64,000 bases of DNA from Methanofollis sp. W23 (lineage in GTDB: Archaea > Halobacteriota > Methanomicrobia > Methanomicrobiales > Methanofollaceae). A model generated the notes under the pieces. It was given only the letters and a program-made list of their open reading frames with translations, had not been told where the DNA came from and did no database searches. Shown here piece by piece: positions 37,424 to 59,191 of the stretch. Made by a program: the position numbers and the translations under genes. The DNA lies in the NCBI RefSeq assembly GCF_017875325.1, contig NZ_JAGGMN010000001.1, forward strand, positions 2,314,140-2,378,139, written 5' to 3'. The stretch's first letter is position 1; every line of letters begins with the position of its first letter.

Positions 37424-37439
37424 GAAATTATAATAAAAC

Positions 37440-38993: not shown

Positions 38994-39123
38994 GTTCTTA
39001 TATGTGAATCCAGGGTTCATGCTCGATTTTACACCGCTGTTTACCACGAAAAACATGTCATGCGGTATGCTTGAGGCGTGTTTTCCCGTCATCTCTGACT
39101 CTCTTGAACTGATGTATTTTATT

Positions 39124-39774: not shown

Positions 39775-39858
39775 GATATCAGGACCTGCTGAAGAGAGAA
39801 TGTTGGTCCTGGAGTGACAAAGAGGTGACCCGGACGGGCGAGATATTCTTGACTGATG

Positions 39859-40850
39859 GGTTCTGTAGAATCGGGCATGAACCTCTGGCTCAAGCATACG
39901 GGATGAAAATATTTCGTCGCTTGATTGCTCTTTTTCAAGAGAGGAGAATCGGTGGGGATCGTGTTCCATCGCCGCCCCTCGGGTATCTTCGTCGTGGGGG
40001 TCCGGGGGGTTTCCCCCTGGTGCGAGATGGTGGGAAAGATTCTGCAATTAAGGGCGGCACATCTGATCGTCACGCCTTCCCACATCCTTGCGCCGGGGGC
40101 CCCGCCCCCGGATCCCCGGGATTGCGATTGGGTCAGGGAGGCAGAGGCCTGATCATTCGGAAGATGTATCCAAAATCTTCGTATCGGTCCAGAAGGTGTT
40201 TGGAGGTCTCAAACCATTACGGAAATCCGGAAAGGCGATCTTCTGGATCATTTTCATGGTAATCAGGGATGAACATGGGGTTCAAGGATATGGGATGAAA
40301 ATTTCATAGTGCAGGTCTCCGGCATGTGAGATGGTCCTTGATCCTTCTCCTCGTGATAGGGGAAAGGCCATATATCTCTTGACCTGCCGCCCCTCGGCCA
40401 TCTTCGTCTGTGGGGGTTCGGGGGCACGGCCCCCGGCGCGAGACGGCAGGGAAGTTTCTGCAATAGAGGGCGGCTTCTGATCTCGTGTCTTTCTTTCTCT
40501 TTCTGATCGCACGCCTTCCTCCATAAATCGCGCCGGGGGTTGCGACCCCCGGACCCCCACGTCAGGATTGGGATGGGAAGGCAGAAGGCCTGATGATCTT
40601 CAGGATCATTTTCATGGTAAACCATTCTCTTTTCATCGCTTCAACCCCTGTGAACCGAATCCATCGCCTTCCCTCATGCTCACGCCGGGGGGTAGCACCC
40701 CTGACCCCCCGGGATTGCGATTGGGACGGGAAGGCGGAGAGATAACCATGAAGAGGGGGTTGCAATCCGTCACCTATCTTCGCGCGGGGGGTTTCGGGGG
40801 GCGGCCAGCCTCCCGGCGAAGAGAACCATCAAGATGATTTCTACAAAGCC
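39859..40850. repeat. Large composite MITE-like element (about 1 kb)
   Basis: The left end is B-type (GGTTCTGTAGAATCGGGCATG, then CTCTGGCTCAAGCATACGGGATGAAAATATTTC). The right end is a reverse A-type (GAGAACCATCAAGATGATTTCTACAAAGCC). The interior contains several GC hairpin cores (for example CGCCGGGGGCCCCGCCCCCGG at 40091-40111 and GGGTTGCGACCCC near 40533), and CCTGATGATCTTCAGGATCATTTTCATGGTAA at about 40588 is nearly repeated at 40230-40260. It looks like nested insertions. No gene. Confidence 0.6.
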
Positions 40851-40881: not shown

Positions 40882-41916
40882 TCACCGCAGGTCCATCCGC
40901 GCGAACTTCACCCATGCGAGCCCGAAGAAAAACGCGGGCATGACGAGCATGGCGATCAGGGCGGCGAAGATATACCAGGAGTTCAGGAGGACCGAGAGGA
41001 TGGTTCCTGGACTATAGTCCTGCATGCCGTCGTCGGCGGGAGGAAGTGCCGTCACTGCAGCGGTGGCCGCATTATAGATCCACGCGGGCGAGATGATCAT
41101 CGTCGCGGTGATCAGGGTGTTGCGTGTGTTCCAGTAGGCCTCGTTCTCTGCATCATACTCATCGAGGAGAGCAAGACTCTCTCCATATGAGACATCCGTT
41201 GAATAGGCTTCTTCGGGACATTCCGGCGGTTCGCCAAGGACGGCATCGAGGACCAGGGGATTGTAGGCGAAGAACGGGAGGATGACGGCGACGAGGACGA
41301 GGACGATGAGAGAGGAGAGGAATGCGGTACCGCTCTCCGATGCGATCGTCGAGAAGAAGAGGGCGATCATGAAGAAGGTGGCGATGAAGAGGACGGTGAA
41401 GAGCCCGAAGATGAACGTCTGTATCGTCTGGATCGGGCTGAGGACAGTCCCCCCGATGAGCAGAATCGCACAGCTCACCCCGAGGGCGATCGCGACGGCG
41501 AGAGCGATGGCCGCGACCCCGCCGAGTGCCTTGCCGGTGATCACCTCGTCGCGATAGATCGGGTGGGAGAGGAGGATCTTCAGCGATTTACTCTCTTTTT
41601 CACGGGTCACGAGATCGAACCCCATCGCGATCCCCATGAAGGCGCTGAACGTCGCCGTCATCATCTCGATCAGATGGAAGATCACCGTTACCGAGGGTTT
41701 CGAGGAGGCCGTCGGATCGGGGGGTGCGTCGTCCCCGGAGACGACCGTCAGTGCGTCGTGGTATCTATCAAGGCTCTTGTGGAACTGGATCATGCCCGAG
41801 AATGCTCCCGTCCCGGTGATGATCAGGATGACGGCAAGGAGCGCGAGGAACCGTCTGCTCCTGAGATGGTCGCGGAACTCCTTGCCCGCGATGGTCCTGA
41901 GCGTCTGGACCCTCAT
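40882..41916 (-). CDS. ABC-2/NosY-like permease 8 (last gene of the array)
   Basis: The 344-residue permease has a cytoplasmic N-terminus (RTIAGKEFRDHLRSRRF), one helix, a short outer loop, a helix, the conserved inner segment EKESKSLKILLSHPIYRDEV, three more helices, a large outer domain (about residues 215-305) and a final helix. The outer domain has the shared SPxxxY motif (IISPAWIY) and is most like permease 6. It is the promoter-distal gene; its ATG overlaps the stop of permease 7. Its own last codons read RMDLR instead of REDIR, so it lacks the embedded ribosome binding site that every upstream member keeps. Confidence 0.88.
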   Translation of the reverse strand: MRVQTLRTIAGKEFRDHLRSRRFLALLAVILIITGTGAFSGMIQFHKSLDRYHDALTVVSGDDAPPDPTASSKPSVTVIFHLIEMMTATFSAFMGIAMGFDLVTREKESKSLKILLSHPIYRDEVITGKALGGVAAIALAVAIALGVSCAILLIGGTVLSPIQTIQTFIFGLFTVLFIATFFMIALFFSTIASESGTAFLSSLIVLVLVAVILPFFAYNPLVLDAVLGEPPECPEEAYSTDVSYGESLALLDEYDAENEAYWNTRNTLITATMIISPAWIYNAATAAVTALPPADDGMQDYSPGTILSVLLNSWYIFAALIAMLVMPAFFFGLAWVKFARMDLR

Positions 41917-42923
41917 CGAATATCCTCCCGTGCAAAGCGCACCCATGCCAGCCCGAAGAAGCCCGCCGGGAAGACGAAGAAGACGACGATGTGTCCGGCA
42001 AGCATCCCGAAGAGATCGGCAAGAGACTGATGACGCTCTTCTGATACATGGAGGGCGGTGACGGCACCGGTGAGTTTCTGGTAATTTTTGTCTGGCGAGA
42101 AGAGGGAAAGCGTATCCTTGACCGCCTGACGCTTCTGTTCGTGGGCGATCTTCTGTGTCCGGTATTCCTCCCACAGCCTATCTTTTTCGATCTGTTCCTC
42201 AGGACTCAACATCCTGTCACTTGAGGGCGGTCCGGGGGGGTAGTCGCCGATGAGCAGATTGAGTGCCGGGGTGGAGATGATCAGCGACGTCAGGGACGAG
42301 AGGGTGATGAAGACGATGAACGCCGAGACCAGGGCGCTCCCGCTGTTTGGGGCGACTGTCGAGAAGAAGAGGGCCAGGACGAAGAAGGAGAAGACCATGA
42401 GAAATGAGAGCCCGGTGAAGAGGAGGATCTGCACGCTCTCCTCGAACGAAGGGACGGCCCCGAAGATGAGGAGGACGGCAAGGGCGAGGAGAAGCACGAT
42501 CCCCATCGCGAGGGCGATTGCGCCAGCGCCGCCGAGTGCCTTGCCGGTGATCACCTCGTCGCGGTACACCGGATGAGAGAGGAGAAGTTTGAGGGATTTG
42601 CTCTCTTTTTCCTTCGTCACGAGGTCAAACCCCATCGCGATCCCGAGCACCGCCCCGAGTGTCCCGATGAGAGAACCCATCTGGGCGAAGGCAGAGAGGG
42701 GGGAGGGTTTTGTGCCGATGGCCCCGGCCTGGAGTTCTTCTCCGCTCACGTCCACCTGGGCCTGGTTGTAGTCGTCCAGGTCGTTCTGGTACTGGACCAT
42801 CCCGGCGACAAGACCGGTGAGGCCGATGATGAGGAGGATCCCGAAGAGGATATGGAACCGTCTGCTCCTCACATGGTCGCGGAACTCCTTGCCCGCGATC
42901 ACGTTGAGGGTCTGGACCCTCAT
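41913..42923 (-). CDS. ABC-2/NosY-like permease 7
   Basis: The 336-residue paralogue has the shared topology and the inner motif KEKESKSLKLLLSHPVYRDE. Its outer loop (about residues 222-300) is distinctive: charged, with PPGPPSSDRMLSPEEQIEKD and the conserved LFSPDKNYQKL. It ends in FAREDIR, whose codons contain GGAGG seven bases before the ATG of permease 8. It starts at an ATGA overlap with permease 6. Confidence 0.88.
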   Translation of the reverse strand: MRVQTLNVIAGKEFRDHVRSRRFHILFGILLIIGLTGLVAGMVQYQNDLDDYNQAQVDVSGEELQAGAIGTKPSPLSAFAQMGSLIGTLGAVLGIAMGFDLVTKEKESKSLKLLLSHPVYRDEVITGKALGGAGAIALAMGIVLLLALAVLLIFGAVPSFEESVQILLFTGLSFLMVFSFFVLALFFSTVAPNSGSALVSAFIVFITLSSLTSLIISTPALNLLIGDYPPGPPSSDRMLSPEEQIEKDRLWEEYRTQKIAHEQKRQAVKDTLSLFSPDKNYQKLTGAVTALHVSEERHQSLADLFGMLAGHIVVFFVFPAGFFGLAWVRFAREDIR

Positions 42924-43939
42924 CGAATATCCTCCCGTGCGAACCGCACCCACGCAAGCCCGAAGAAGCCCGCCGGGAGTACGAGAAGTGCGATCAGGTG
43001 GTGCGAGAGATCGGCGATCATCTCGAAGAGTGCGGAGATTCCGGGCTCTTCAGTATCATCAGAGATATCGTCTCTGTTACGGTCATCCGGTATCATGGTC
43101 TCAAGGATCTGATCATAATTCCAGGACGGTGAGATGAGCATCGCCGTGCGCATGAGAGTGTTTCGTGCGTCATAGTAGGCTTTAATCTCCGTCTCGTACT
43201 CCGCGATCTCCTCTGCATCGGACTCTTCAGGAAACTCAGGAGGTTCGCCAAGGATGGTGTCGGTGACCATGGGGATGGTGAGGATGAGCGGGATGACGAG
43301 CATGGTGACGACGACGAGGGCGAGGGAGGCGACAAGGGCCATCCCACTATTTTTTGCCACGGTCGAGAAGAAGAGGGCGACCACGAAGGGTGAGAAGATG
43401 AAGAGGAAGGTGAACACCCCGAAGAGGAGCACCTTTATCATCTCGACAGAACTGAGCACGACCCCACCGATGAGCAGGACGGCGAGGGCGATACCTACGG
43501 TGATGGCACCCGCGAGGGCGATGGCCCCGGCGCCGCCGAGAAGTTTCCCGGTGATCACCTCGTCGCGATAGATGGGATGAGAGAGGAGCATCTTGAGCGA
43601 CTTGCTCTCCTTCTCTCTGGTTACGAGGTCGAACCCCATCGCCAACCCGAGGAAACTCCCGATGATGGCGGTCATGGACCCTATTTGTTCGAAGACTTTC
43701 ATGATCGAGGGACGTGAAGAGGAGGGGGGGTATCTGGTGCTGACGGGCTCTTCTTCACCGGACGCGAGCACCTGCGCTTCATTGTATTCGTCCAGGTCTT
43801 TCTGGTATTGAACCGTCCCGGCGATCATCCCGAGACTTGCGACGATGAGGAAGACGGCAAGGATCGTGAGGAAACGCCTGCTTCTCAGATGGTCACGGAA
43901 TTCTTTGGCTGTGATGATGCCAAGGGCCTGCGTCCTCAT
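42920..43939 (-). CDS. ABC-2/NosY-like permease 6
   Basis: The 339-residue paralogue has the motifs ITAKEFRDHLRSRRF and EKESKSLKMLLSHPIYRDEV. The outer loop is acidic, with LISPSWNYDQI; it is closest to permease 8. It is the only member not starting at an ATGA overlap with the previous permease: 31 bases lie between the upstream stop and its ATG, and these encode a 12-codon mini-ORF that itself ends in an ATGA overlap with this gene. CAGGGGGTGACCTGCA before the ATG supplies a second ribosome binding site. Confidence 0.88.
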   Translation of the reverse strand: MRTQALGIITAKEFRDHLRSRRFLTILAVFLIVASLGMIAGTVQYQKDLDEYNEAQVLASGEEEPVSTRYPPSSSRPSIMKVFEQIGSMTAIIGSFLGLAMGFDLVTREKESKSLKMLLSHPIYRDEVITGKLLGGAGAIALAGAITVGIALAVLLIGGVVLSSVEMIKVLLFGVFTFLFIFSPFVVALFFSTVAKNSGMALVASLALVVVTMLVIPLILTIPMVTDTILGEPPEFPEESDAEEIAEYETEIKAYYDARNTLMRTAMLISPSWNYDQILETMIPDDRNRDDISDDTEEPGISALFEMIADLSHHLIALLVLPAGFFGLAWVRFAREDIR

Positions 43940-43974
43940 TGCAGGTCACCCCCTGCGCTGGAATACGCCGTCAT
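43936..43974 (-). CDS. 12-codon relay mini-ORF between permeases 5 and 6
   Basis: ATG at 43974 overlaps the TGA of permease 5 (ATGA) and is preceded by the same CGGGAGG site as the other array junctions. It encodes MTAYSSAGGDLQ and stops at a TGA overlapping the ATG of permease 6. Both overlaps have the spacing used elsewhere in the array, so it may pass ribosomes from gene to gene. It could also be a by-product of a small insertion at this junction. Confidence 0.45.
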   Translation of the reverse strand: MTAYSSAGGDLQ

Positions 43975-45017
43975 CTAACATCCTCCCGTGCGAACCGCAC
44001 CCAGGCAAGTCCGAAGAAGATCATCGGGAAGGCGAGGAAGGCGATTATGTTCCTGATCAGGTCGGGACGGGTGGAGGAAATGGGGTTGTTCACTGGAGAG
44101 AGGATCTCCATGTAGTTTTGATAGGGTGAGACGAGAGTTGCGATGCCGTCGACGGTATCGCGTCGCCAGGAGTATGCCTCATAGGCTTCTTCATAGGCTT
44201 TCATTTCTTCACTACCGGGATCGAAATCTTCAAACCCGATCCTCTGAACTTCTATGACTTTTGAAGGATCCTCTGGATCCTCTATGGTGACTGTCTCAGT
44301 CTCGGTGGGGTAGTCGGGGGGCTCAGGTGATTCCCCGATGAGCAGGGCGGTGACCGGGCCACCGTTGCCGATGGTCGGGACGACAGCGTAGAGGATGATG
44401 ATGAGAAGGAGGGATGATACAAGGGCGCTCCCGCTGTTTGGGGAGACCGTCGAGAAGAAGAGGGCGATGGAATAGAAGGAGAAGATGAATAAGAAGCCCA
44501 TCCCTCCACCAAGTGCAATCCTGAGACTCTCGTCAGGACTCGGAACGATCCCGGAGATGAGGAGGACGGCAAAGCTGAAGACGAGGATGATCCCTGTCGC
44601 CAGGGCGATTGCCCCGGCGGCGCCGAGGGCCTTGCCGGTGATCACTTCGTCGCGGTAGACTGGATGAGAGAGAAGCAGTTTGAGCGACTTGCTCTCCTTC
44701 TCCTGGGTCACCGAGTCAAACCCCATCGCTGCCCCGAGAAAGATCCCGACGAAAGCGGTGGCTATATAAAACTGGCTGAAGCCAGAGAGGACGGTGGGTT
44801 TGGGGGGCGGGGAAGTGGTCCGGGGGTCGTCCGCCTCCGGCGCCGCTATCTGTGTCTCCTGATATCGTTCCAGACTCACCTGGTACTGGCTCACGCCTCC
44901 GATCAATCCCAGCACGGCGACGATGAGCATGATCGCGAGGAAGAGGTGGAAGCGCCCGCTCCTCACATGGTCTCGGAACTCTTTGCCCGCGATTACGCTG
45001 AGGGGGTATCCCCTCAT
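43971..45017 (-). CDS. ABC-2/NosY-like permease 5
   Basis: The 348-residue paralogue starts MRGYPLSVIAGKEFRDHVRSGRF. The inner motif EKESKSLKLLLSHPVYRDEV is conserved, with TQEKES rather than TREKES before it. The outer loop is one of the longest and most divergent (about residues 215-310), strongly acidic with EDPEDPSKVIEV and the shared LVSPYQNYMEI. The C-terminus is FAREDVR, with GGAGG retained in its codons. It starts at an ATGA overlap with permease 4. Confidence 0.88.
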   Translation of the reverse strand: MRGYPLSVIAGKEFRDHVRSGRFHLFLAIMLIVAVLGLIGGVSQYQVSLERYQETQIAAPEADDPRTTSPPPKPTVLSGFSQFYIATAFVGIFLGAAMGFDSVTQEKESKSLKLLLSHPVYRDEVITGKALGAAGAIALATGIILVFSFAVLLISGIVPSPDESLRIALGGGMGFLFIFSFYSIALFFSTVSPNSGSALVSSLLLIIILYAVVPTIGNGGPVTALLIGESPEPPDYPTETETVTIEDPEDPSKVIEVQRIGFEDFDPGSEEMKAYEEAYEAYSWRRDTVDGIATLVSPYQNYMEILSPVNNPISSTRPDLIRNIIAFLAFPMIFFGLAWVRFAREDVR

Positions 45018-46117
45018 CTGATGTCCTCCCGTGCGAACTTCACCCACGCAAGCCCGAAGAAGACCGCGGGCATCACGATCAGGGCGATGATGTAGTGCGC
45101 CAGTTCTCCGATGATGGCCGCGAGGATCTCAAGCCCACTCTGGGGGAGGTCTTCGGGCCGGTCAAAGGAGTAGGGGTCGTCGCTCAGCATCGAAGCGGCA
45201 TACCCTGGTTCGGTGACGGCCAGCGTCATCTCCTGATAATTTTTGGAGGGCGAGAGCAGGTTGACGGTGTCGATGAACGCACGTCTCTTCTCCCAGTAGG
45301 CCTGCGACGCCTCCTCGTACTCCTTCCATGCCTCCTCGACCTCACCGCTGATCTCTATGGGCATGGGCCTGACCATGACATTGAAACTTCCAGTCGGTCC
45401 TCCCACCGTCTCAGGTGGATCCGGCGGTTCGGGTGCCTCGCCGATGACCGCCTTCTGGACCGTCTGGTTGGTGGCGACGGCCGGGACAAGGACGGAGAGG
45501 ACGATGAAGATGATGAGGGTGTAGATGAGGGCGTTGCTGCTGCTCTCCGCGACCGTGGACATGAAGAGGGCGATCGCGAAGTATGAGAAGACGAGGAGAA
45601 ACGAGATGACGCCGAAGATAAGGATACGCGCACCCTCGTCGAAGTTCGGCACCACCCCGAAGATGAGCAGGATCGCAAAGGAGACGAGGAGTACGATCGC
45701 CATCGCAGCGGCGATCGCGGCGGTCCCGCCGAGGGCCTTGCCATTGATCACCTCGTCGCGGTAGATCGGGTGGGAGAGGAGCATCTTGAGCGACTTGCTC
45801 TCTTTCTCGCGCGAGATCAAGTCGAACCCCATCGCACACCCGAGGACGATCCCGACGGTGGCGATGAGGTCTGACATCCGGTTGAAGGCCGAGAGGATGG
45901 AAGGTTTCCACCAGAAGATGGCGTGCATCATCTCGTCGTCGGTCTGGGCCAAGTTTTCGTTGTAGCGGTCGATCTGTTCCTGATAGTTCACCGCACCGTC
46001 GATGAGCCCGACGACGGCGATGACCAGGAAGATCGCGAGGATGATGTGGACCCTCCTGCTCCTCACGTGATCCCAGAACTCCTTGCCCGCGATGATCCCG
46101 AGGGCCCTGGTCCTCAT
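45014..46117 (-). CDS. ABC-2/NosY-like permease 4
   Basis: The 367-residue paralogue has IIAGKEFWDHVRSRRVHI, with Trp replacing Arg of KEFRD. The inner helix pair carries LISREKESKSLKMLLSHP and a NGKALGG variant. The outer loop contains YWEKRRAFIDTVNLLSPSKN, like permeases 1 and 9. Its ATG overlaps the stop of permease 3 and its end overlaps the start of permease 5. Confidence 0.88.
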   Translation of the reverse strand: MRTRALGIIAGKEFWDHVRSRRVHIILAIFLVIAVVGLIDGAVNYQEQIDRYNENLAQTDDEMMHAIFWWKPSILSAFNRMSDLIATVGIVLGCAMGFDLISREKESKSLKMLLSHPIYRDEVINGKALGGTAAIAAAMAIVLLVSFAILLIFGVVPNFDEGARILIFGVISFLLVFSYFAIALFMSTVAESSSNALIYTLIIFIVLSVLVPAVATNQTVQKAVIGEAPEPPDPPETVGGPTGSFNVMVRPMPIEISGEVEEAWKEYEEASQAYWEKRRAFIDTVNLLSPSKNYQEMTLAVTEPGYAASMLSDDPYSFDRPEDLPQSGLEILAAIIGELAHYIIALIVMPAVFFGLAWVKFAREDIR

Positions 46118-47244
46118 CGAATGTCCTCCCGTGCAAATTGCACCCACGCGAGCCCGAAGAAAGCGGCGGGGAAGACAAAGAGGGCGATGATGCGCTGGGA
46201 AAGTCCGCCGAGAAGTCCGAAGAAGGTGCTGAGTCCGTCCTTTGGTTCGGTCATCGGGTCGAACAGAGCGTTCTCGCCCTGGTGCTGCCTTGCCGCTTCA
46301 AGCCCTGGTTCGGTGACCGCGAAGGCGAGGCGTTGATAGTTCTGGTCAGGGGAGAGGAGTGTGAAGGTGTCGGTGATCGCCGTGCGCCTCTCCCAGTAGG
46401 CCCTGGACTCTTCTCTGTACTCTTCCATCTTCTCCTGGTACTCTTCCTGGTCGAACGCCACTTCGGTGGGTTTGTCTGAGATCACCGTGGTACCGCTCCC
46501 CGTGCTCCCTGCCTCGGTGTCAAATGTATAGGTAAATCCAGGAGATTCTGGGGGTTCGGGCGGGTCGCCGATGAGGAAGGTGATCGCCGGGCCTGAGATG
46601 ACCAGTATGGTGACCGCGGAGAGGGGGACGAAGAGGACGAGAGTGAGGACAAGAGCGCTCCCGCTGTCCTTTGCCACCGTCGAGAAGAAGAGGGCGAGGA
46701 TGAAGAAGGAGAAGACCATGAGAAATGAGAGTCCGCCAAAGATCAGAACCCGCACCGTCTCCTCGAACGAAGGGACGACCCCGAAGACGAGGAGGACGGC
46801 AAGGGCGAGGACGAGCACGATCGCCATCGCGAGGGCGATTGCGCCGGCGCCGCCGAGCGCCTTGCCGTTGATCACCTCGTCACGGTAGACCGGATGAGAG
46901 AGGAGAAGTTTGAGCGACTTGCTCTCCTTCTCTCTGGTCACGAGGTCGAACCCCATCGCGCACCCGAGCACCGCCCCGAGTGTCCCGATGAAGTACGCCA
47001 TCTGGGTGAAGCCCGAGAGTGGCGAGGGTATCATCGATGCAGGCATCTGTGCACGTGCTTCGTCGCTCACGTCCCCATAAGCCTCGTTGTAGGTCTCCAG
47101 TTCTTCCTGGTACTGGGCCATCCCTGAGGCCAGACTGACGAGGGCGATGACCAGGAAGATCCCGAAGATGAGGTGGAACTTCCTGCTCCTCACATGATCC
47201 CGGAACTCCTTGCCCGCGATGGTCTTGAGTGCGTGTATCCTCAT
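46114..47244 (-). CDS. ABC-2/NosY-like permease 3
   Basis: At 376 residues this is the longest of the paralogues. The N-terminus is MRIHALKTIAGKEFRDHVRSRKF. Its outer loop (about residues 225-335), with FTLLSPDQNYQRLAFAVTEPGL, is closest to that of permease 10 in the third operon (FHLISPDRNYEKLTFAVV). It ends FAREDIR with the embedded GGAGG. Confidence 0.88.
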   Translation of the reverse strand: MRIHALKTIAGKEFRDHVRSRKFHLIFGIFLVIALVSLASGMAQYQEELETYNEAYGDVSDEARAQMPASMIPSPLSGFTQMAYFIGTLGAVLGCAMGFDLVTREKESKSLKLLLSHPVYRDEVINGKALGGAGAIALAMAIVLVLALAVLLVFGVVPSFEETVRVLIFGGLSFLMVFSFFILALFFSTVAKDSGSALVLTLVLFVPLSAVTILVISGPAITFLIGDPPEPPESPGFTYTFDTEAGSTGSGTTVISDKPTEVAFDQEEYQEKMEEYREESRAYWERRTAITDTFTLLSPDQNYQRLAFAVTEPGLEAARQHQGENALFDPMTEPKDGLSTFFGLLGGLSQRIIALFVFPAAFFGLAWVQFAREDIR

Positions 47245-48326
47245 CGAATGTCCTCTCGTGCAAACCGCACCCAGGCGAGTCCGAAGAAAGCTACTGGTAA
47301 GACAAGCATGGCGATGATGTTCTTTGCAAGGGCTCCGAGCAGTCCGACGAAGATCGCAAGCCCGCTCTCAGGGAGGGTTGCGTAAAATTCCTTGGTCTCT
47401 TCCCAGTCCAGGTAATACGCTCCGGAGACCATTGCTGCCGTGCCGCGTGGATCTGCCACCGCCCTCACCATCTCCATATAATTTCTTGTGGGGGAGAGGA
47501 GGTCGGTCGTGTCGTGAAGACCCTGCACTTTTATCTGGTACATTCTATTTTTCTCCTGGTACTCGTCCCAGACTCGTCTATGTTCCTCTACGTCGGCGAA
47601 GGTGGAGGGGCCACCCATCTGGGGGGGTTCTGGCCGGTCACCAAAGAGGGCATTGATCAGGGCACCATTCCCGGCAAGGGACGGCAGGAAGATCCCGAGG
47701 ACGATAAAGATTGCAAGGGATCCGATGAGGGCGTTCCCGCTGTTTCGGGCGACTGTCGACATGAAGAGAGCGATAGCGAAGAAGGTGAACACCCCAAGGA
47801 AGGAGATGACGCCGAAGAGCAGGATCCGGACTGTTTCCTCAAAGTTCGGGACGATCCCGAAGACAAGCATCAGGGCAAGGGAGACGAGGAGCATGATCCC
47901 CATCGCGAGGGCGATTGCGCCAGCGCCGCCGAGTGCCTTGCCGGTGATCACCTCGTCGCGGTAGACCGGGTGGGAGAGGAGGATCTTAAGCGATTTGCTC
48001 TCCTTCTCCGCGGTGATGAGGTCAAAACCCATCGCGATCCCGAGCACCGCCGCGACTGTCGAGAGCAGATAACCTATCCTGTTGAAAGCCTCTAGGACTG
48101 ATGGTTTCCCCTCATAATAATGGTATGATAAGTCATCTTCTCCTTCTGAAGCGGCCACCTGCATCTCATTATACCGTTCCAGGCCCTCCTGGTACGAAAA
48201 CGCTCCGTCGATCAGTCCGGCGACCGCAATGATGAGCAAGATCGCAAAAAGAGTTCGGAATCTCTTGCTCCTGACCTGGTCGCGGAACTCCTTGCCCGCG
48301 ATGATCCTGAGGATACCGGTTCTCAT
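47241..48326 (-). CDS. ABC-2/NosY-like permease 2
   Basis: The 361-residue paralogue starts MRTGILRIIAGKEFRDQVRSKRF, with TAEKESKSLKILLSHPVYRD as the inner motif. The outer loop is distinct (RPEPPQMGGPSTFADVEEH, then DLLSPTRNYMEMV). The last codons read CGAGAGGACATTCGATGA, so the ribosome binding site for permease 3 is GAGAGGA rather than GGGAGGA. It starts at an ATGA overlap with permease 1. Confidence 0.88.
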   Translation of the reverse strand: MRTGILRIIAGKEFRDQVRSKRFRTLFAILLIIAVAGLIDGAFSYQEGLERYNEMQVAASEGEDDLSYHYYEGKPSVLEAFNRIGYLLSTVAAVLGIAMGFDLITAEKESKSLKILLSHPVYRDEVITGKALGGAGAIALAMGIMLLVSLALMLVFGIVPNFEETVRILLFGVISFLGVFTFFAIALFMSTVARNSGNALIGSLAIFIVLGIFLPSLAGNGALINALFGDRPEPPQMGGPSTFADVEEHRRVWDEYQEKNRMYQIKVQGLHDTTDLLSPTRNYMEMVRAVADPRGTAAMVSGAYYLDWEETKEFYATLPESGLAIFVGLLGALAKNIIAMLVLPVAFFGLAWVRFAREDIR

Positions 48327-49435
48327 CGAATGTCCTCCCGCATGAACCTGACCCATGCGAGCCCGAAGAAGGCGGCAGGGATCACGAGGAGTGCGATAAC
48401 GTTCTTTGCAAGGGCTCCCATGAGACCCCCGAGGATCGCAAGCCCGCTCTCAGGGAGGTCTTCGTAGATGTCTGGAGAATAACTCCCGGCATTCTGAACT
48501 GCAATGGAAATTCTTGGTTCGGTCACGGCCATCGCCATCTGCTGGTAGCTGTGGGAGGGCGAGAGCAGGTTGACGGCATCGGTGAAGGCACGTCTCTTCT
48601 CCCAGTAGGCGTCCGACTTTTCTCTGTACTCTTCCCAGGCCAGATCAACCTCAGAGGGTTCTCCCACTTCTCCTGTCGACGAGGCTGTCGAGGAACTTGA
48701 GACCGCGTATGAGCTGAGATATGGTCCATGTATGTGAGGGGGTTCAGGTGGTTCTCCGATGACGGCGTTCATCACACTCTCATTGGCGGCGATGGCCGGA
48801 ATGAGGGTAGAGAGTACGATGAATATGATGAGTGTGTAGATGAGAGCGTTGCTGCTGTCTTTTGCGACCGTGGACATGAAGAGGGCGATCGCGAAGTACG
48901 AGAAGATGAGCAGGAACGAGAGTCCTCCGAAGAGCAGGATGCGTACGCTCTCGTCAAGGTTCGGGACGATCCCGAATATGAGGATGATCGCAAAGGAGAG
49001 GACGAGCACGATTCCCATTGCAAGTGCGATGGCGGCGATCCCGCCGAGGGCCTTGCCATTGATCACCTCGTCGCGATAGATCGGGTGAGAGAGAAGGATC
49101 TTGAGGGACTTGCTCTCTTTCTCGCGCGAGATGAGGTCAAACCCCATCGCACACCCGAGGACGACCCCGACGGTGGTGATGAGCATGGACATCTTGAAGA
49201 AGGCCGAGAGGATGGATGGCTTCCACCCAAAGTAACTGGGCATTATCTCGTCGTCCGAGACCTGGGCCAGGCGGTCGTTGTAGTCGTCGATCTGCTTGTT
49301 GTACTGGATCGAGCCGTCGATGAGGCCGACGACGGCGATGATCAGGAATATCCCGAGGAGGATGTGGAACCTCCTGCTCCTGATATGGTCGCGGAACTCC
49401 TTGGCGGCGATGACCCTGAGGCCCCCGCTCCTCAT
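48323..49435 (-). CDS. ABC-2/NosY-like permease 1 (first of the array)
   Basis: The 370-residue permease directly follows the ATPase gene and overlaps it by four bases (ATGA). Residues 1-232 differ from permease 9 in the second operon at about five positions, while the outer loop after GEPPE (about 233-320) diverges sharply and is longer. The two resemble each other again at the C-terminus (VIPAAFFGLAW.RFMREDIR). This mosaic suggests recent duplication or gene conversion of the membrane part with selection or exchange in the loop. Confidence 0.9.
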   Translation of the reverse strand: MRSGGLRVIAAKEFRDHIRSRRFHILLGIFLIIAVVGLIDGSIQYNKQIDDYNDRLAQVSDDEIMPSYFGWKPSILSAFFKMSMLITTVGVVLGCAMGFDLISREKESKSLKILLSHPIYRDEVINGKALGGIAAIALAMGIVLVLSFAIILIFGIVPNLDESVRILLFGGLSFLLIFSYFAIALFMSTVAKDSSNALIYTLIIFIVLSTLIPAIAANESVMNAVIGEPPEPPHIHGPYLSSYAVSSSSTASSTGEVGEPSEVDLAWEEYREKSDAYWEKRRAFTDAVNLLSPSHSYQQMAMAVTEPRISIAVQNAGSYSPDIYEDLPESGLAILGGLMGALAKNVIALLVIPAAFFGLAWVRFMREDIR

Positions 49436-50346
49436 GTCATCCCCTCACCCACCTCATAATATGAGAGGAATACGTCCTCGATGTCAGGGTGTTCTGCCTC
49501 CAGGCTTCTGATGGCGACCCCTGCTTTGGCGAGGGTGTCTGCGAGTTCGTCCCTGATGTCGACAGTGGCGACGAGTCGTGCACGGTGGCGGTTCTCGGCG
49601 AACTCTGCGGCGACGAGCGCCGGACTCTGGAGGTCCGGCATCGGGGTGCGGGTCTCGATGTGGATGACGACTTTTTCGTCACCGCCGACGCGGGCGAGTT
49701 CGTCCCAGGTGCCGTGGGCGACGAGTTTGCCGTGGGCGAGGATCCCTGCCGAAGTGCAGACCTTGCTCACCTCAGAGAGGATGTGGGATGAGACCAGGAC
49801 GGTGGTGCCCTGGTCTGCCACGTGTCTGATGATCCTCCGATAGTCTGCGACGCCCTGGGGGTCGAGGTTGGCGGTGGGCTCGTCGAGGATGATGGCCCTG
49901 GGATGGTTGATGAGCGCCTTGGCGATCCCGAGCCGCTGTCTCATCCCCTTCGAGAACCCGCCGACCTCCTTGGTGACCCCTTCGAGCCCGACGAGTGCGA
50001 GGAGTTCTTGAATCCGTTCTTTGCGCTCCTTCCCCATGCCATAGAGTTTCGCCGAGTACTCGAGGTTCTCCTCGGCGGTGAGCGTCGGGTAGAACCCGAC
50101 ATCTTCGGGCATGTATCCGATCTTCTTCTTCACCTCGATGGGGTGGGTGGCGACCTCGAGGTCGTCGATATAACAGGCGCCTGAGGTGGGCTCGATGAGC
50201 CCGGTGAGCATCAGGATGGTGGTGCTCTTCCCGGCGCCGTTCGGCCCGAGGAGGCCGAAGACCTCACCCTCGGGCACCTCAAGGCAGAGGTCGTCGACGG
50301 CAGGAACGCCGTGGTAGACCTTGCAGAGATGTTCACAACGTATCAT
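49432..50346 (-). CDS. ABC transporter ATPase of the eight-permease operon
   Basis: The 304-residue nucleotide-binding protein has Walker A (GLLGPNGAGKST), a Q-loop region (GYMPEDVGFYPTLTAEENL), signature GFSKGMRQRLGIAKAL, Walker B with catalytic Glu (RAIILDEPTANLD) and the H-loop (VLVSSHILSEV). A C-terminal extension of about 85 residues follows, with HPDIEDVFLSYY as in NatA-type ATPases. It is the only ATPase in an operon with eight permeases, so it must be shared or used in turn. It differs from the second operon's ATPase at about four internal residues and in the last seven. Confidence 0.95.
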   Translation of the reverse strand: MIRCEHLCKVYHGVPAVDDLCLEVPEGEVFGLLGPNGAGKSTTILMLTGLIEPTSGACYIDDLEVATHPIEVKKKIGYMPEDVGFYPTLTAEENLEYSAKLYGMGKERKERIQELLALVGLEGVTKEVGGFSKGMRQRLGIAKALINHPRAIILDEPTANLDPQGVADYRRIIRHVADQGTTVLVSSHILSEVSKVCTSAGILAHGKLVAHGTWDELARVGGDEKVVIHIETRTPMPDLQSPALVAAEFAENRHRARLVATVDIRDELADTLAKAGVAIRSLEAEHPDIEDVFLSYYEVGEGMT

Positions 50347-50390
50347 GGTCCTTCACTCCAATAGTCTGGTTTGAAGATCCATAGAGGTCC

Positions 50391-50426
50391 ATTTATAAAA
50401 TAGGTTCTGTGACAATCCTCTACATG
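50391..50426 (-). promoter_or_regulatory. Shared ABC-operon promoter block, copy 1
   Basis: On the minus strand: TGTAGAGGATTGTCACAGAA, then CC and TATTTTATAAAT. The TATA box (TTTTATAA) lies 45-55 bases before the ATPase ATG. The same 36-bp block is upstream of the other two ABC operons; here the TTGTGCCACAA palindrome is changed to TTGTCACAGAA. Confidence 0.7.
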
Positions 50427-51254: not shown

Positions 51255-52703
51255 TCAACGGCGCTGGTATTTCCTGAAGTAATACCAGACCCCGCCAGCG
51301 ATCCCGACCAGCAGGAGGACACCCAGGACGGCCGCAAAGGACTGTTCCTTCACGACGATCCTGAAGTCCTCCTCCTGTTCACCCTGGTCTGAGATCACCT
51401 TGACGCTGACCTTGTAGTCAGAGGCGACGATGTTGGAGGGTGGGGCTACCGTCACCTTCACGGTGTCGCGCTCTCCTGGCTGGAGACTCGTGATGTTGGT
51501 CGGAGTCACCGTGGCGCTCCATCCCTGGGGGGCCATCACTTCAAACCCGATACCGGTGAGCGCACCCGCCGTGCCGGCGTTCCTCACCCTGAGATCGAAG
51601 GTGACCGTGCCGCCCATGTCGGTCTCATAACTGTAGCGGTCGGCCGAGACCCGCATCTCATAACTCCCACGGATCTTTGCGGTCAGTTCGTCTGAATACT
51701 CACCTGCCGAGGAACCGATGAGGGCCTGGAACGAGTAGTCCCCTGTGCCGGTACCGTACGGGGGGATCGCCTCAAGATAGAGTTCCTTCTCCTCGCCGGC
51801 ACGCAGGAATATCTCTGAGAGATCGCCCGGGGCATTGGCCGACTCCTTGTAGCGTGCGTACCAGCCTTCAGGGAGGTCTTTTGTGGAGAGGAGGTAGTTG
51901 TCGTCACCGGTACCCGCGTTTTTCAGGTTGAGTTCGAAGATCGGGTTGCGCCCCACCGGCGAGGTGATGATCGGGGACTTGATGGTCATCTCGGCGGCGT
52001 ACGGCGACTTCTCCAGCATCACGGTCCCGGCGTCGGTGGTGATCCCGCACTTCACCTTGACGTCTTTCTTCTCGGCTCCCTTGTACCCGGCCTTCTCGAT
52101 GACGAGGTCATAGATTCCCTGGGGGATGCCTGTGCTGATCTTGCCGTCTGCGGTGGTCGTCACCTTGTCGAAGGGCTCGGCATGTTTGTCTTCATAGACC
52201 TCGACGGTCGCGCCCTTCACCTTCTCGCCGTCCTTGTCGGTGACGGTGAGGTCGAGGGTGCCGAGTTCATTAGCATGGGTCTTGGAGATGTCCACGTGGA
52301 GCCAGATCGACCCGGTGCCGACATGGGCCTTCAGCGGGTACTCCCCGACCCTGGTGTCGGCCGCGGTCTCGACCTCCAGGGTGACGGTCTTTGTCGCACC
52401 CGGTGGGATGGAGACCTTGTTCACCTCAGTCTCGCCGTCGACGAAACGCATCTCCCAGTCTCTGCACCCGACAAAGGACTCCGTCCACATCTCCATATGG
52501 TCTGAATTTCCGTTGTTGGTCACGGCGAGCGAGAAGGTCGCCGTCTCCCCGGCCTCGATCACCTGGCCGGGGAAGTCGCAGTGAATGGAAACGGTTCCGC
52601 CTGCCGCATCATCCAGGGCCGCCGCAGGAGCGGCAACCAGGAGGGGCAGGAGCATGAGGACGGCGCAGAAGGCTGCAAGCCTCTGTTCAATTTTTTCTTT
52701 CAT
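51255..52703 (-). CDS. NEW3-domain membrane protein of the second ABC operon
   Basis: The 482-residue protein has a signal peptide (ending AAPAAALDD), an N-terminal CARDB/NEW3-like beta domain (residues 38-140, GETATFSLAVTNNGNSD), a carboxypeptidase-regulatory-like domain (about 148-228, VKGATVEVYED ... IEKAGYKGAEKK), two NEW3-type domains (about 240-445, FELNLKNAGTGDDNY and FDLRVRNAGTAG) and one C-terminal helix with YYFRKYQRR inside. Most of it faces outward. Its ATG overlaps the stop of permease 9, whose REDIR codons give its GGAGG site. It may bind substrate or surface structures for the transporter. Confidence 0.85.
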   Translation of the reverse strand: MKEKIEQRLAAFCAVLMLLPLLVAAPAAALDDAAGGTVSIHCDFPGQVIEAGETATFSLAVTNNGNSDHMEMWTESFVGCRDWEMRFVDGETEVNKVSIPPGATKTVTLEVETAADTRVGEYPLKAHVGTGSIWLHVDISKTHANELGTLDLTVTDKDGEKVKGATVEVYEDKHAEPFDKVTTTADGKISTGIPQGIYDLVIEKAGYKGAEKKDVKVKCGITTDAGTVMLEKSPYAAEMTIKSPIITSPVGRNPIFELNLKNAGTGDDNYLLSTKDLPEGWYARYKESANAPGDLSEIFLRAGEEKELYLEAIPPYGTGTGDYSFQALIGSSAGEYSDELTAKIRGSYEMRVSADRYSYETDMGGTVTFDLRVRNAGTAGALTGIGFEVMAPQGWSATVTPTNITSLQPGERDTVKVTVAPPSNIVASDYKVSVKVISDQGEQEEDFRIVVKEQSFAAVLGVLLLVGIAGGVWYYFRKYQRR

Positions 52704-53794
52704 CTAATATCCTCCCGCATAAATCTGATCCATGCGAGCCCGAAGAAGGCGGCAGGGATCACGAAGAGGGCGAGAATGTTCTTTGCAAGGTCTCCTATGA
52801 GATCTCCGAGGACTGCGAGTCCGCTCTCAGGGGGCTCGTCATACGGGTCATTAAAGCCGTAACTCTGGAGGGTGACGGCAAGTTGTGGGTTGGTCAGGGC
52901 CATCGCCATCTCCTGGTAGTTGTAGGAGGGAGAGATCAGGTTGACGGTGTCGGTGAAGGTATGTCTCTTCTTCCAGTATGCATCTGACTTCTCCTCGTAC
53001 TCTTCCCAGGCCAGATCGATCTCAGAGGGCTCTTCCAGGCCCTCGACCGGTGCTGAGATGACTACGCCATTGGCAGAAAATTTATCATCCATATTAGGGA
53101 ATTCTGGGGGTTCTCCGATGACGGCGTTCATCACACTCTCATTGGCGGCGATGGCCGGGATGAGGGTAGAGAGTACGATGAAGATGATGAGGGTGTAGAT
53201 GAGTGCGTTGCTGCTGTCTTTCGCGACCGTGGACATGAAGAGGGCGATCGCGAAGTATGAGAAGATGAGCAGGAACGAGAGTCCTCCGAAGAGCAGGATG
53301 CGTACGCTCTCGTCAAGGTTCGGGACGATCCCGAAGATGAGGATGATCGCAAAGGAGAGTGCGAGCACGATTCCCATTGCGAGTGCGATGGCGGCGATAC
53401 CGCCGAGGGCCTTGCCATTGATCACCTCGTCGCGGTACACCGGGTGGGAGAGGAGGATCTTGAGGGACTTGCTCTCTTTCTCGCGCGAGATCAGGTCGAA
53501 TCCCATCGCACACCCGAGAACGACCCCGACGGTGGTGATGAGCATGGACATCTTGAAGAAGGCCGAGAGGATGGAGGGCTTCCACCCGAAGTAACCGGGC
53601 ATTATCTCGTCGTCCGAGACCTGGGCCAGGCGGTCGTTGTAGTCGTCGATCTGCTTGTTGTACTGGATCGAGCCGTCGATGAGACCGACGACAGCGATGA
53701 TCAGGAAGATCCCGAGGAGGATGTGGAACCGCCTGCTCCTGATATGGTCGCGGAACTCCTTGGCGGCGATGACCCTGAGCCCTTCGGTTCTCAT
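52700..53794 (-). CDS. ABC-2/NosY-like permease 9 (second operon)
   Basis: The 364-residue permease is almost identical to permease 1 over residues 1-232, then has a different outer loop (DDKFSANGVVISAPVEG, then VNLISPSYNYQEMAMAL). It ends FMREDIR with an embedded GGAGG that now serves the NEW3-domain gene rather than another permease. It overlaps the upstream ATPase stop by four bases. Confidence 0.9.
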   Translation of the reverse strand: MRTEGLRVIAAKEFRDHIRSRRFHILLGIFLIIAVVGLIDGSIQYNKQIDDYNDRLAQVSDDEIMPGYFGWKPSILSAFFKMSMLITTVGVVLGCAMGFDLISREKESKSLKILLSHPVYRDEVINGKALGGIAAIALAMGIVLALSFAIILIFGIVPNLDESVRILLFGGLSFLLIFSYFAIALFMSTVAKDSSNALIYTLIIFIVLSTLIPAIAANESVMNAVIGEPPEFPNMDDKFSANGVVISAPVEGLEEPSEIDLAWEEYEEKSDAYWKKRHTFTDTVNLISPSYNYQEMAMALTNPQLAVTLQSYGFNDPYDEPPESGLAVLGDLIGDLAKNILALFVIPAAFFGLAWIRFMREDIR

Positions 53795-56106: not shown

Positions 56107-56250
56107 ACCATGATAAAGATCCTCCACCGATCGATCAGGCCGCTGAAAACGAGGGAGAGGAGGAATATAGGATCCTGAACCATCGGGTCCAGACTGGTTC
56201 TCCGAACTCCTTGCCTGCGATGGTCCGGTCCTGATGGTCTCGGTCCTCAT
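56107..56250 (-). pseudogene. Remnant of an eleventh ABC-2 permease
   Basis: ATG at 56250 overlaps the stop of permease 10 and begins MRTETIRT like other family members. The frame then shifts; the IAGKEFGEPVWTRWFRIL sequence (IAGKEFRDHVRSRRFxIL in relatives) is readable in another frame, and a further shift gives VFSGLIDRW, matching the end of helix 1. Nothing of the rest of the gene is left. This shows that the third operon once continued with more permeases. Confidence 0.75.
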
Positions 56251-57338
56251 CGAATGTCCTCCCGTACGAAACGAATCCATGAAAGCCCGAAGAAAGCCGC
56301 GGGGAAGACAAGGATAGCGACGATGTTGCTTGCAAGGCTCCCGAGCAGAGCGAAGAGCGCGGAGAGACCATCTTCAGAGACGATTTCACCGTCTGAGACG
56401 GTCGCCGCGACAAGTCCTGGTCTGACCACTGCGAAGGTGAGTTTCTCGTAATTTCGGTCAGGGGAGATGAGGTGGAACGTATCCTCTATCGCCTGTCTCT
56501 TCCCCTGGTAGACCTTTGACTCTATTTCATACTCCTCCATCCTTTCCTCGAACTCTCCCGGCGCCATCCCTTCGTCCGACACGCCCATGATCCCGCTCCC
56601 GCTGTTCGGCCCGGTCATGAAACTATAGTCATATGTCACTCCCGGAAACTCCGGCGGCTCGCCGATGAGGAGGGTGACCCCCGCGCTCGACGTGGCCAGA
56701 TAGGTGGCCGAGGAGAGGGTGATGAAGACGATGAGCGTGGACACCAGGGCGCTCCCGCTTGTCTTCGTGACCGTCGAGAAGAAGAGAGCGAGGGCGAAGA
56801 AGGAGACGATCATCAGGAACGAGAGCAGTCCGAAGATCAAGATCCGTATCGACTCGTCAAGATCGGGCACGACCCCCGACATGAGCAGCACCGCACACGA
56901 AACCCCGACGAGCAGGAAGATTGCGAGGGCGATTGCCGCGGCGCCGCCGAGTGCCTTGCCGGTGATCACCTCGTCACGATAGATCGGGTGAGAGAGGAGG
57001 ATCTTGAGTGACTTACTCTCCTTCTCTCTGGTCACGAGGTCGAATCCCATCGCGATCCCGGTGACGGCACCAAGAGAGGAGAAAATCAGTGCCATCTCGT
57101 AGAAGGCAAAGAGCGGTGATGGTTTCGTGATGAGCGGGGTCTGTGCAAGTTCTTCATCACCGACCGCGGTGCGGGCCTGGTTGTAGTCGTCCAAGTCTTT
57201 ATGATACTGGACCGTCCCTGAGGCCAGACCGACGGCGGCGATGACAAGCATGATCCCGAGGAGACAGAGAAACCGCCTGCTCCTGACGTGATCATGGAAC
57301 TCCCTGGCGGCGATGACCCTGAGGGCCTCGGTTCTCAT
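56247..57338 (-). CDS. ABC-2/NosY-like permease 10 (third operon)
   Basis: The 363-residue permease is intact, with IAAREFHDHVRSRRF, the inner REKESKSLKILLSHPIYRDE and an outer loop (about residues 225-320) containing FHLISPDRNYEKL. It is closest to permease 3 of the main array. The upstream ATPase is destroyed, so it could work only with an ATPase from one of the other two operons. It keeps the embedded GGAGG in its REDIR codons although the downstream gene is only a fragment. Confidence 0.88.
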   Translation of the reverse strand: MRTEALRVIAAREFHDHVRSRRFLCLLGIMLVIAAVGLASGTVQYHKDLDDYNQARTAVGDEELAQTPLITKPSPLFAFYEMALIFSSLGAVTGIAMGFDLVTREKESKSLKILLSHPIYRDEVITGKALGGAAAIALAIFLLVGVSCAVLLMSGVVPDLDESIRILIFGLLSFLMIVSFFALALFFSTVTKTSGSALVSTLIVFITLSSATYLATSSAGVTLLIGEPPEFPGVTYDYSFMTGPNSGSGIMGVSDEGMAPGEFEERMEEYEIESKVYQGKRQAIEDTFHLISPDRNYEKLTFAVVRPGLVAATVSDGEIVSEDGLSALFALLGSLASNIVAILVFPAAFFGLSWIRFVREDIR

Positions 57339-57604
57339 GCGTTATCCCCCGTGGCGTGAGAGGATGAGAAAAATACGGCCTCGATGTCAGGGTGTTCTGT
57401 TTCGAGACTCCTGGTTGCGCCTCCTGCTTCTGCAAGAGTGTTGGCACATTTGCCCCAGGTGCCATGGACAAGGATGCCTGCCTGGGTGCAGACCTTGCTC
57501 ACCTCGATGAGGCCAGAGGCTCCCTCCTCGGGCACCCCCGGGCGGAGGCCTTCGACGGCATGAACACTGTGATAAGCCTTGTAGAGATATTCGCAACATA
57601 TCAT
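57335..57604 (-). pseudogene. Gutted ABC ATPase gene (internal in-frame deletions)
   Basis: The 89-residue frame aligns with the two 304-residue ATPases in three pieces: the N-terminus (MICCEYLYKAYHSVHAVEGL, against MIRCEHLCKVYHGVPAVDDL), a middle piece (EVSKVCTQAGILVHGTW) and the C-terminus (TLAEAGGATRSLETEHPDIE). The Walker A, Q-loop, signature, Walker B and H-loop segments are all missing, so it cannot bind or split ATP. The frame, start, promoter block and ATGA overlap with permease 10 are preserved, possibly because translation through it still feeds the permease. Confidence 0.85.
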
Positions 57605-57686: not shown

Positions 57687-57767
57687 TCGGCCAATGGGCC
57701 AGACCAAGAGGATGTGTAAACGTCTGTGCCAGATCGTTTATTATCGGGTGGGGCAGAGATCGTACCT

Positions 57768-58475
57768 ATGAAATGGCGGGCGCTTCTCTGGATGCTGGTG
57801 CTGGTCTGTCTCCTGATCCCATCGGTCGCCGCGGAGGATGAGCACGTCGAGACGGTAGAGATATCCATAAAGTCTGATCCCGTCCAGGTCCACGAGGAAC
57901 CTGCCGAGAGTATTATTATCATCACCGATGTCGCCGCTTCCAACGATGCCCTCATCGACTCCTACCCCTCTCTCTCATATATCCATTATGCGTACAGGGT
58001 CGTCCCTGTCGAAGAAGTCGTTCTCTCGTCTTCTGAAGTCACGATGACTGAGTATGGTGAGGATATGGTCATTATACGTGACGACGCGTCTGAAGTGGCG
58101 GTGGAGACAGAAATTGTGTTTTCTCCAGGGTCTAGCCTGGAAGAGACGGTCCCAACCTATAATGTGATCAACCGCGAGGAGACTTCCAGATCGAGCGCCC
58201 CGGTCTATTATGCCCAGAAGGTGCCTGAAGGCACCAGACACCACTGGGTCGACCTCGATTGGGGGAAGGGGGAGCAAAACCTCACCCTCACTGTCTGGCA
58301 CCCCTCGGGCCTGCTCGGCACCTTCAGGGATGCCGACGACGGGAAGAAGAATGGGAGAATATTCCTGCGGATCTCTGACCCGAAGGGTGTCGAGGGCGGC
58401 GCATGGTACTACCGGGTGAGCGGCCCCAGGATCCCGGTGGCCCTCAACTATACCTTCAAGACATATATCGGGTGA
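57768..58475 (+). CDS. Secreted protein of unknown function, partner of the regulator
   Basis: The 235-residue protein has a signal peptide (MKWRALLWMLVLVCLLIPSVAA) and a mature part rich in Val, Glu and Ser with no C-terminal anchor. The C-terminal third (HHWVDLDWGKGEQNLTLTVWHP ... RIFLRISDPKGVEGGAWYYRVSGP) resembles a beta-sandwich that could bind a ligand. I do not recognise a family. It is followed five bases later by a membrane-anchored regulator and reads away from the third ABC operon, so it may be a sensor component. The ATG at 57768 opens the signal peptide. Confidence 0.72.
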   Translation: MKWRALLWMLVLVCLLIPSVAAEDEHVETVEISIKSDPVQVHEEPAESIIIITDVAASNDALIDSYPSLSYIHYAYRVVPVEEVVLSSSEVTMTEYGEDMVIIRDDASEVAVETEIVFSPGSSLEETVPTYNVINREETSRSSAPVYYAQKVPEGTRHHWVDLDWGKGEQNLTLTVWHPSGLLGTFRDADDGKKNGRIFLRISDPKGVEGGAWYYRVSGPRIPVALNYTFKTYIG

Positions 58476-58480
58476 ACCAT

Positions 58481-59191
58481 ATGGACCGACACACTGCTCT
58501 GGTTCTTCTTACTCTGGTCTTTCTGGTCCAGGGTGCCGGTGCCTATACGGTCACCTCAGGATATGATCATCCGCCGACAGGAGACCCGATCACGCCGGTG
58601 GAAGTCGCCCCCTGGGAACTCCCTCTCTATGTCCTGGTGTACAGCCTCTGTCTTGCCCCGCTTGATCTATTCACCTGGTCATCTGGCGCCTGGTTTTTCC
58701 TCCGCACTCGCCAGGCCGGGAGCGCCCTCCTCGACCATCCGGTGAGGGGTGCGATCTACCGGTGCATCAGGGCCTGCCCGGGGATCCATCTCCGCGCCCT
58801 CTCGGCCACCACCGGGACACCGATGGGTACGCTCAGGTATCACCTGGGTCTTCTCCACCAGCACCACAAGGTCACCGTCCTCCAGGAGGACGGTCGCCTG
58901 ATGTTTTACGAGAACAGCGGGACCTACTCCCTGACCCAGCAGCGTTTGCTCAAGCATTTGAGAAACCCGACCACCCGACAGATCCTCTGCGTGGTCCTCA
59001 GCCACCCGGGGATGTCGCGAAAAGAGGTGGCCGGGGTCGTCGGAATCTCGGGCCCAGCAGTCCACTGGCATATGAAAAAATTGGAGGAGGACGGGTTTGT
59101 CGGAGAAGAACGCTCTGGCAGGACGACACGGTATTTTATCTCTGAGAGTGTCGCCGGCGACCTGACGATGTGGACGGCGGAAGGGGCGTAA
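58481..59191 (+). CDS. Membrane-anchored tandem winged-helix transcription regulator
   Basis: The 236-residue protein has a signal or anchor helix (residues 1-21), a short outer segment, a second helix (about 46-72) and then two winged-helix domains. The first (about 88-145) is GAIYRCIRACPGIHLRALSATTGTP with a LRYHL recognition helix; the second (about 162-225) is SHPGMSRKEVAGVVGISGPAVHWHMKKLEEDGF. This is a one-component membrane regulator able to carry an outside signal to DNA. GGGTGA overlapping the stop of the secreted partner gives its ribosome site. Its neighbours suggest control of the shared ABC promoter block; this is unproven. Confidence 0.83.
   Translation: MDRHTALVLLTLVFLVQGAGAYTVTSGYDHPPTGDPITPVEVAPWELPLYVLVYSLCLAPLDLFTWSSGAWFFLRTRQAGSALLDHPVRGAIYRCIRACPGIHLRALSATTGTPMGTLRYHLGLLHQHHKVTVLQEDGRLMFYENSGTYSLTQQRLLKHLRNPTTRQILCVVLSHPGMSRKEVAGVVGISGPAVHWHMKKLEEDGFVGEERSGRTTRYFISESVAGDLTMWTAEGA

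Follow-up and report, generated by a model that had tools for sequence, protein, structure and literature searches.

Could a single ABC ATPase gene serve the eight permease genes that follow it in one operon? This question is raised by a locus in Methanofollis sp. W23, a methanogen whose genome (2.9 Mb in two contigs, 99.7% complete) includes the window analyzed here, meaning the whole stretch of 64,000 nucleotides around the locus. We consider it probable, and the better reading of the data below, that the array consists of tandem-duplicated and diversified NosY-like (type V, ABC-2) permeases sharing one ATPase type. Its genes are as follows.

49432..50346, minus strand: ATP3, the array ATPase, 304 aa, DrrA/NosF/ABCA-like (PF00005, E 1e-31; NosF 7o0y_B, E 9e-42)
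48323..49435, minus strand: permease P1, 370 aa (PF12679, E 3e-44; AF2 pLDDT 88.5; NosY Z 26.7)
47241..48326, minus strand: permease P2, 361 aa (PF12679; ortholog in G004, relative in G011)
46114..47244, minus strand: permease P3, 376 aa (PF12679; orthologs in G001 and G004)
45014..46117, minus strand: permease P4, 367 aa (PF12679; orthologs in G001 and G004)
43971..45017, minus strand: permease P5, 348 aa (PF12679; ortholog in G001)
42920..43939, minus strand: permease P6, 339 aa (PF12679; ortholog in G001)
41913..42923, minus strand: permease P7, 336 aa (PF12679; orthologs in G001 and G004)
40882..41916, minus strand: permease P8, 344 aa (PF12679; AF2 pLDDT 88.3; NosY Z 25.6; ortholog in G004)

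The original prediction for this DNA described an intact ATPase gene and eight full-length permeases of 336-376 residues on one strand, and both the open reading frames and the PF12679 and PF00005 matches agree with it. All eight permease frames are open, and each of the eight matched ABC2_membrane_2 (PF12679) at E 1e-36 or better. ATP3 contains a Walker A motif (GPNGAGKST at 34), a signature (SKGMRQ at 132), a Walker B motif (LDEPT at 154) and an H-loop (SSH at 186). Nearly all junctions had been described as ATGA overlaps, and 4-nt overlaps of this kind were found at seven of eight; the exception, a 31-nt gap between P5 and P6, is also present in a sister species (G001). P2-P8 are 46-67% identical to P1. 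The inner motifs expected to contact the ATPase, which had been called almost invariant, proved to be invariant (EKESKSLK, HP and YRDE) across ten paralogues, namely P1-P8 and the permeases Q and R of two neighboring units. The SPxxNY motif said to be kept in the outer domain is present in all but two of the permeases: P1 has SPSHSY and P8 has SPAWIY in its place.

The permease family profile matched NosY at E 9e-9, and AF2 models matched NosY over its full length (P1: Z 26.7, rmsd 2.4, 245 aa; P8: Z 25.6, rmsd 2.3, 248 aa), with ABCG-type exporters ranking behind at Z 17-21. A phmmer search of P1 against solved structures gave no match, the likeness to NosY coming through profile and fold only. 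The features of an ABC-2/type V fold were all found in the models: six transmembrane helices (TM), an N-terminal inner helix, a coupling helix between TM2 and TM3, and an outer segment between TM5 and TM6. The extra residues of P1 and P8 lie mostly in this last segment, giving an enlarged outer domain, and the known topology of the NosY-type fold predicts that the insertion faces outside. In both models the outer domain has the same helix order, with a long helix (262-290 in P1, 244-275 in P8), a second helix (293-305 and 277-289, respectively) and a variable loop, and as modeled the outer domains appear to vary on a common scaffold. None of the NCBIfam cutoffs for the Drr and Gld exporters was reached, with drrA (TIGR01188) at 236 bits against 312, drrB at 18 against 223, GldA at 213 against 403 and GldF at 34-38 against 288.

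Two further units, which the prediction did not mention, lie upstream of the array on the same strand.

51255..52703, minus strand: NEW3/NPCBM_assoc protein of the canonical unit, 482 aa (PF10633, E 4e-28)
52700..53794, minus strand: permease Q of the canonical unit, 364 aa, 84% identical to P1
53791..54705, minus strand: ATP2, the canonical-unit ATPase, 304 aa, 98% identical to ATP3
56165..56242, minus strand: N-terminal remnant of a further permease behind R, 26 residues (tblastn 46% identity, E 0.001)
56247..57338, minus strand: permease R of the third unit, intact, 363 aa (dN/dS 0.18 vs G004)
57335..57604, minus strand: ATPase remnant, 89 aa, lacking Walker A, signature and Walker B, with an ATGA overlap into R

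The unit directly upstream of the array (51255-54705) has the order ATPase-permease-NEW3, which we call canonical. Hydropathy gave its NEW3 protein a signal-peptide-like start and a C-terminal TM, and by analogy this protein is a candidate extracytoplasmic partner for Q. The array unit has no NEW3 gene of its own, and no NosD-type partner is found in the unit, the neighboring surface protein being of the NEW3/NPCBM_assoc type. Upstream of the canonical unit stands a decayed third unit, made up of R and remnants. Its ATPase remnant is 81-89 aa long in three species (the window genome, G000, and G001 and G004), and the same internal loss, from about residue 31 to just behind the H-loop, is found in all three. 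The remnant unit keeps its promoter, its reading frame and the overlap into R, and R itself is intact in G000 and G004.

Is such an array real, and where does it come from? Twelve genomes of the genus Methanofollis were searched, G000 among them. Three have one ATPase-permease-NEW3 unit each (G002, G006 and G007), G005 has two, and none of these units was found in G003. G009 and G010, and G008 in part, have the unit together with an ATPase followed by two permeases, and G011 has the unit and an ATPase with three or more permeases, where a contig end interrupts the set. The remnant unit R, unit Q and an ATPase with six permeases occur on one contig in G004; G001 has R, Q and an ATPase with at least seven permeases, split over contigs. 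A 3.6-kb contig of G009 (L029, G009:C3) carries ATPase-permease-NEW3 as in the main locus of that genome, with an identical permease; it is a duplicate from the assembly or else a further copy.

The arrays of G001 and G004 are orthologous to that of the window and keep the same permease order, with P2 missing from G001 and P5 and P6 missing from G004. In the tree, P1-P8, Q and R form old lineages with orthologs, and several of these lineages are older than the split of the genus. The second Methanofollis clade also contains P2-, R-, P5- and P6/P8-like genes, although some of these joins are on long branches. The orthologous lineages, together with the losses in G001 and G004, argue that the array is genuine and old, and that copies in it are gained and lost. 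Misassembly, which the prediction had raised as a way for the array to be spurious, was ruled out by the orthologous sets of six and at least seven permeases in these two species. Sets of an ATPase with three or more permeases, the kind of relative that the prediction proposed looking for, were found in G001, G004, G011 and an ANME-1 genome, and the array stands at one extreme of a series within the genus of 1, 2, 3, 6, 7 and 8 permeases. Whatever the permease count, a locus has one or two NEW3 genes.

Outside the genus there is mostly one permease per ATPase. The ANME-1 genome (G061, L080) has about five permeases behind an ATPase fragment at a contig end, in the order permease-NEW3-permease x4 (L080:368-7330), and is a separate expansion. 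The N-termini of these permeases are near-identical (ME[AS]KGLFNV[AV]RKEFIDH). Three different NosY-like permeases also stand in a row in Methanoculleus sediminis (L067:7790-11041), where an ATPase is not directly adjacent.

Some loci outside the genus have two permeases per ATPase (L071, L073 and L078), which raises the idea that different permeases pair up as heterodimers, in set or free combinations, so that combinatorial transporters arise from one ATPase. Consistent with this, the two-permease sets of other genera (G022 and G047) fall in two different clades of the tree, and the array permeases form at least two deep clades. However, most genomes have the canonical unit with a single permease, which must homodimerize or borrow a partner, and the losses do not follow pairs, with P2 alone lost in G001 and P5 and P6 lost together in G004 while the rest were retained. 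We regard heterodimers as unlikely, though they fare best among the alternatives to a shared motor.

The case for one ATPase type serving many permeases begins with the numbers. Genome-wide there are only two intact ATPases of the array type (ATP2 and ATP3) for ten permeases, and the next best of about twenty other ABC ATPases is at most 39% identical. The proposal that each permease might have its own ATPase elsewhere was tested against this set and rejected for the array ATPase type. The best single argument for motor sharing is R without its ATPase: if active, R must use an ATPase made elsewhere, because the one in cis is a remnant that has lost Walker A, the signature and Walker B. In addition, the ATPases are homogenized within genomes, with a pS of 0.00-0.22 within G000, G001, G004 and G005, compared to 0.30-0.40 between species. 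The paired ATPases of two units are 100% identical at the nucleotide level in G011 (302 codons) and 99.9% in G001, both being metagenome assemblies, where such repeat identity may be an artifact of assembly, and the nearly closed genomes G000, G004 and G005 have the same trend in a weaker form (pS 0.14-0.22). The permeases behind the identical ATPases of G011 belong to different lineages. In G001 the ATPase identity runs on through the first 120 permease codons and then gives way to 11-43% nucleotide mismatch in the outer part, and in G000 the tract of low divergence reaches about codon 210 of the permease. This pattern would be explained by gene conversion tracts that stop before or at the outer domain; it fits interchangeable motors and may be read as compatible with them, short of proof.

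The prediction of one motor with interchangeable permeases is thereby supported indirectly, through the count of two ATPases to ten permeases, R, and the homogenized ATPases, and we infer from these a physical sharing of the motor. The support for a shared ATPase, although indirect, appears good. Three points weigh against it. The homogenization may be neutral gene conversion between neighboring copies, with no interchangeability; an unrelated ATPase elsewhere in the genome could energize some of the permeases; and a gene ratio of 1:8 would call for the ATPase to be translated more strongly, or for only some of the permeases to be occupied.

Selection on the permeases was compared by region. 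Between orthologs, each paralogue had a dN/dS of 0.13-0.44 across its full length; the inner segments gave 0.02-0.19 and the outer domain 0.15-0.65, always below 1. For R the value against G004 was 0.18, indicating purifying selection. Over 28 pairs of paralogues, pN/pS was 0.27 in the coupling segment, 0.71 in TM1-EL1, 0.68 in TM3-5 and 0.69 in the outer domain, and pN between the paralogues of the window rose from 0.12 in the coupling region (89-140) to 0.49 in the outer domain. A cautious reading is that the coupling region is under strong constraint and the remainder under weak constraint. The outer domain is under weaker constraint than the inner segments, and no positive selection on it was seen in the ortholog comparison. 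It had been described as the part that differs strongly, and it is indeed diversified, but the contrast lies between the coupling segment and most other regions. The outer domain as the sole variable part was rejected, as TM1-EL1 and TM3-5 have similar pN/pS among paralogues.

These values bear on a second alternative, in which only P1, or P1 and a few others, are pumps driven by ATP3 and the rest are independent of an ATPase, regulatory, or on another ATPase. The twenty or so other ABC ATPases of the genome would allow for this, and orphan permeases of the superfamily that lack a nearby ATPase are found both in this genome (L012 and L013) and in Methanoculleus. In each of the eight permeases, though, conservation is highest in the coupling segment, as expected if they all still contact one kind of ATPase, and we find this alternative slightly less convincing than heterodimers. 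A tandem amplification that is neutral or transient and maintained by recombination, with most copies redundant and heading for decay, is improbable: copy number varies among sister species and decayed remnants adjoin R, but ortholog dN/dS is 0.13-0.44 per paralogue with all eight frames open, the paralogues are old, and P2-P8, at 46-67% identity to P1, are not recent copies.

If many permeases share a motor, are they also switched together? The elements relevant to this question are listed below.

50385..50425 (approximate), minus strand: TATA box TTTTATAAAT and operator-like element GATTGTCACAGAA upstream of ATP3
57660-57740: divergent promoter region with two GATTGTGCCACAATC-like elements, one per direction
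57765..58475, plus strand: secreted protein, divergently transcribed, a conserved neighbor (no Pfam match)
58403..59191, plus strand: candidate two-domain winged-helix regulator, a conserved neighbor, judged from sequence to be membrane-anchored (PF13412, PF12840 and PF24266)

The TATA box lies about 45-60 nt upstream of the ATPase starts and is preceded by a palindrome-like GATTGTGCCACAA(TC) element. This combination was found before every Methanofollis ATPase of the array type whose upstream sequence was examined, and also before the remnant. Genome-wide, with up to one mismatch allowed, operator and TATA box occur together only at the three promoters of the ATPases and the ATPase remnant; a scan for this promoter type inside the array found none. 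The winged-helix protein has apparent N-terminal membrane segments, and its gene and that of the secreted protein adjoin the locus as a pair in Methanofollis, Methanogenium and Methanoregula. The GATTGTGCCACAATC-like divergent elements are conserved in Methanofollis and recognizable in Methanogenium. A natural guess from sequence is that the winged-helix membrane protein is a candidate regulator of the whole set.

For physical sharing of the ATPase, the type of dimer, the handling of clients and the identity of the regulator, we infer the following mechanism under the shared-motor reading. An ATPase dimer, made from either intact gene, would dock on the inner coupling segments of a permease dimer, which would most simply be a homodimer, built from two copies of P1-P8, Q or R as the case may be, because one-permease units exist. 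The ATPase would then drive movements of the enlarged, paralogue-specific outer domain. The candidate partner of Q is the NEW3 protein; the remaining outer domains are probably devoted to different clients, whether at the surface or secreted, or to substrates for export. The common operator would switch all units together, plausibly through the adjacent membrane-bound winged-helix regulator. Taken as a whole, a surface machine with one motor and many heads, in which an ATPase type kept uniform by gene conversion drives at least ten permeases with outer domains that differ between species and within them, and an envelope-sensing regulator switches them all, is a tentative proposal that falls somewhat short of an even chance.

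In NosDFY, the outer side of the transporter works with an extracytoplasmic partner. The NosDFY system of denitrifiers, with NosF as ATPase, NosY as permease and NosD as partner (PDB 7o0y, 7o12, 7qba and 7znq), is among the closest known systems. The locus resembles it in the permease fold (Z 25-27 across all of NosY), in the ATPase family and in encoding an extracytoplasmic protein beside the permease of the canonical unit. It differs in that the permeases are about 20% identical to NosY and have a larger outer domain, in that one ATPase stands to eight permeases, and in that the neighbor is a membrane-anchored NEW3/Ig-like protein instead of NosD. The canonical ATPase-permease-NEW3 unit, which is found in Methanomicrobiales, ANME-1 and Dehalococcoidia (L044-L104), comprises the same three families as the array locus but has one or two permeases per ATPase. 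The array unit lacks its own NEW3; the canonical unit is its direct ancestor or sister. The ANME-1 operon likewise places a tandem series of permeases from this family behind a single ATPase fragment, but differs in having its NEW3 gene inside the operon and fewer permeases. DrrAB, GldAFG and the ABCG/ABCA exporters belong to the same ATPase and transmembrane domain superfamily (ABCG folds at Z 17-21, GldF as a weak match) and, unlike the array, have a fixed ratio of ATPase to permease.

An ATPase shared among several transporters has been described for the importers that use MsmK (PMC4519317) and FhuC (PMC10147376), and one ATPase likewise serves several transporters in the case of MceG (PMC9947336) and MsiK (PMC4890002). 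These are importers or Mce systems encoded apart, whereas the array is ABC-2/type V exporter-like and lies in a single operon. In the open-access literature we found no paper on the array, on Methanofollis ABC-2 permeases, or on an ABC-2 operon with this many permeases, and a search for papers linking NEW3 proteins with ABC transporters found nothing useful. The claim that no system with this layout has been described holds within that literature, but the layout is the end of a continuum and ANME-1 has a set of about five. The array is apparently an extreme, undescribed form of a common transporter design.

One ATPase with eight diversified ABC-2 permeases would be a clean natural series for studying the residues that couple motor and permease and for the role of the outer domain, and ATPase sharing has so far been known for importers encoded apart. 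The species with 1, 2, 3, 6, 7 and 8 permeases, with varied outer domains on a common scaffold and with R lacking its ATPase, make up a testable family. Furthermore, the locus suggests that methanogens and the methane oxidizers of ANME-1 have a surface system, with a regulator of its own, that is still unexplored.

The two orphan NosY-like permeases of the same genome (L012:5202-6290 and L013:6775-7791) have no ATPase of the array type nearby, and each adjoins genes for small secreted proteins. Similar orphan permeases in Methanoculleus (L107-L119) frequently have a same-family winged-helix gene next to them. Within the window itself, the cumulative GC skew flips from falling to rising near 38 kb (36001-40000), where the main coding strand changes.
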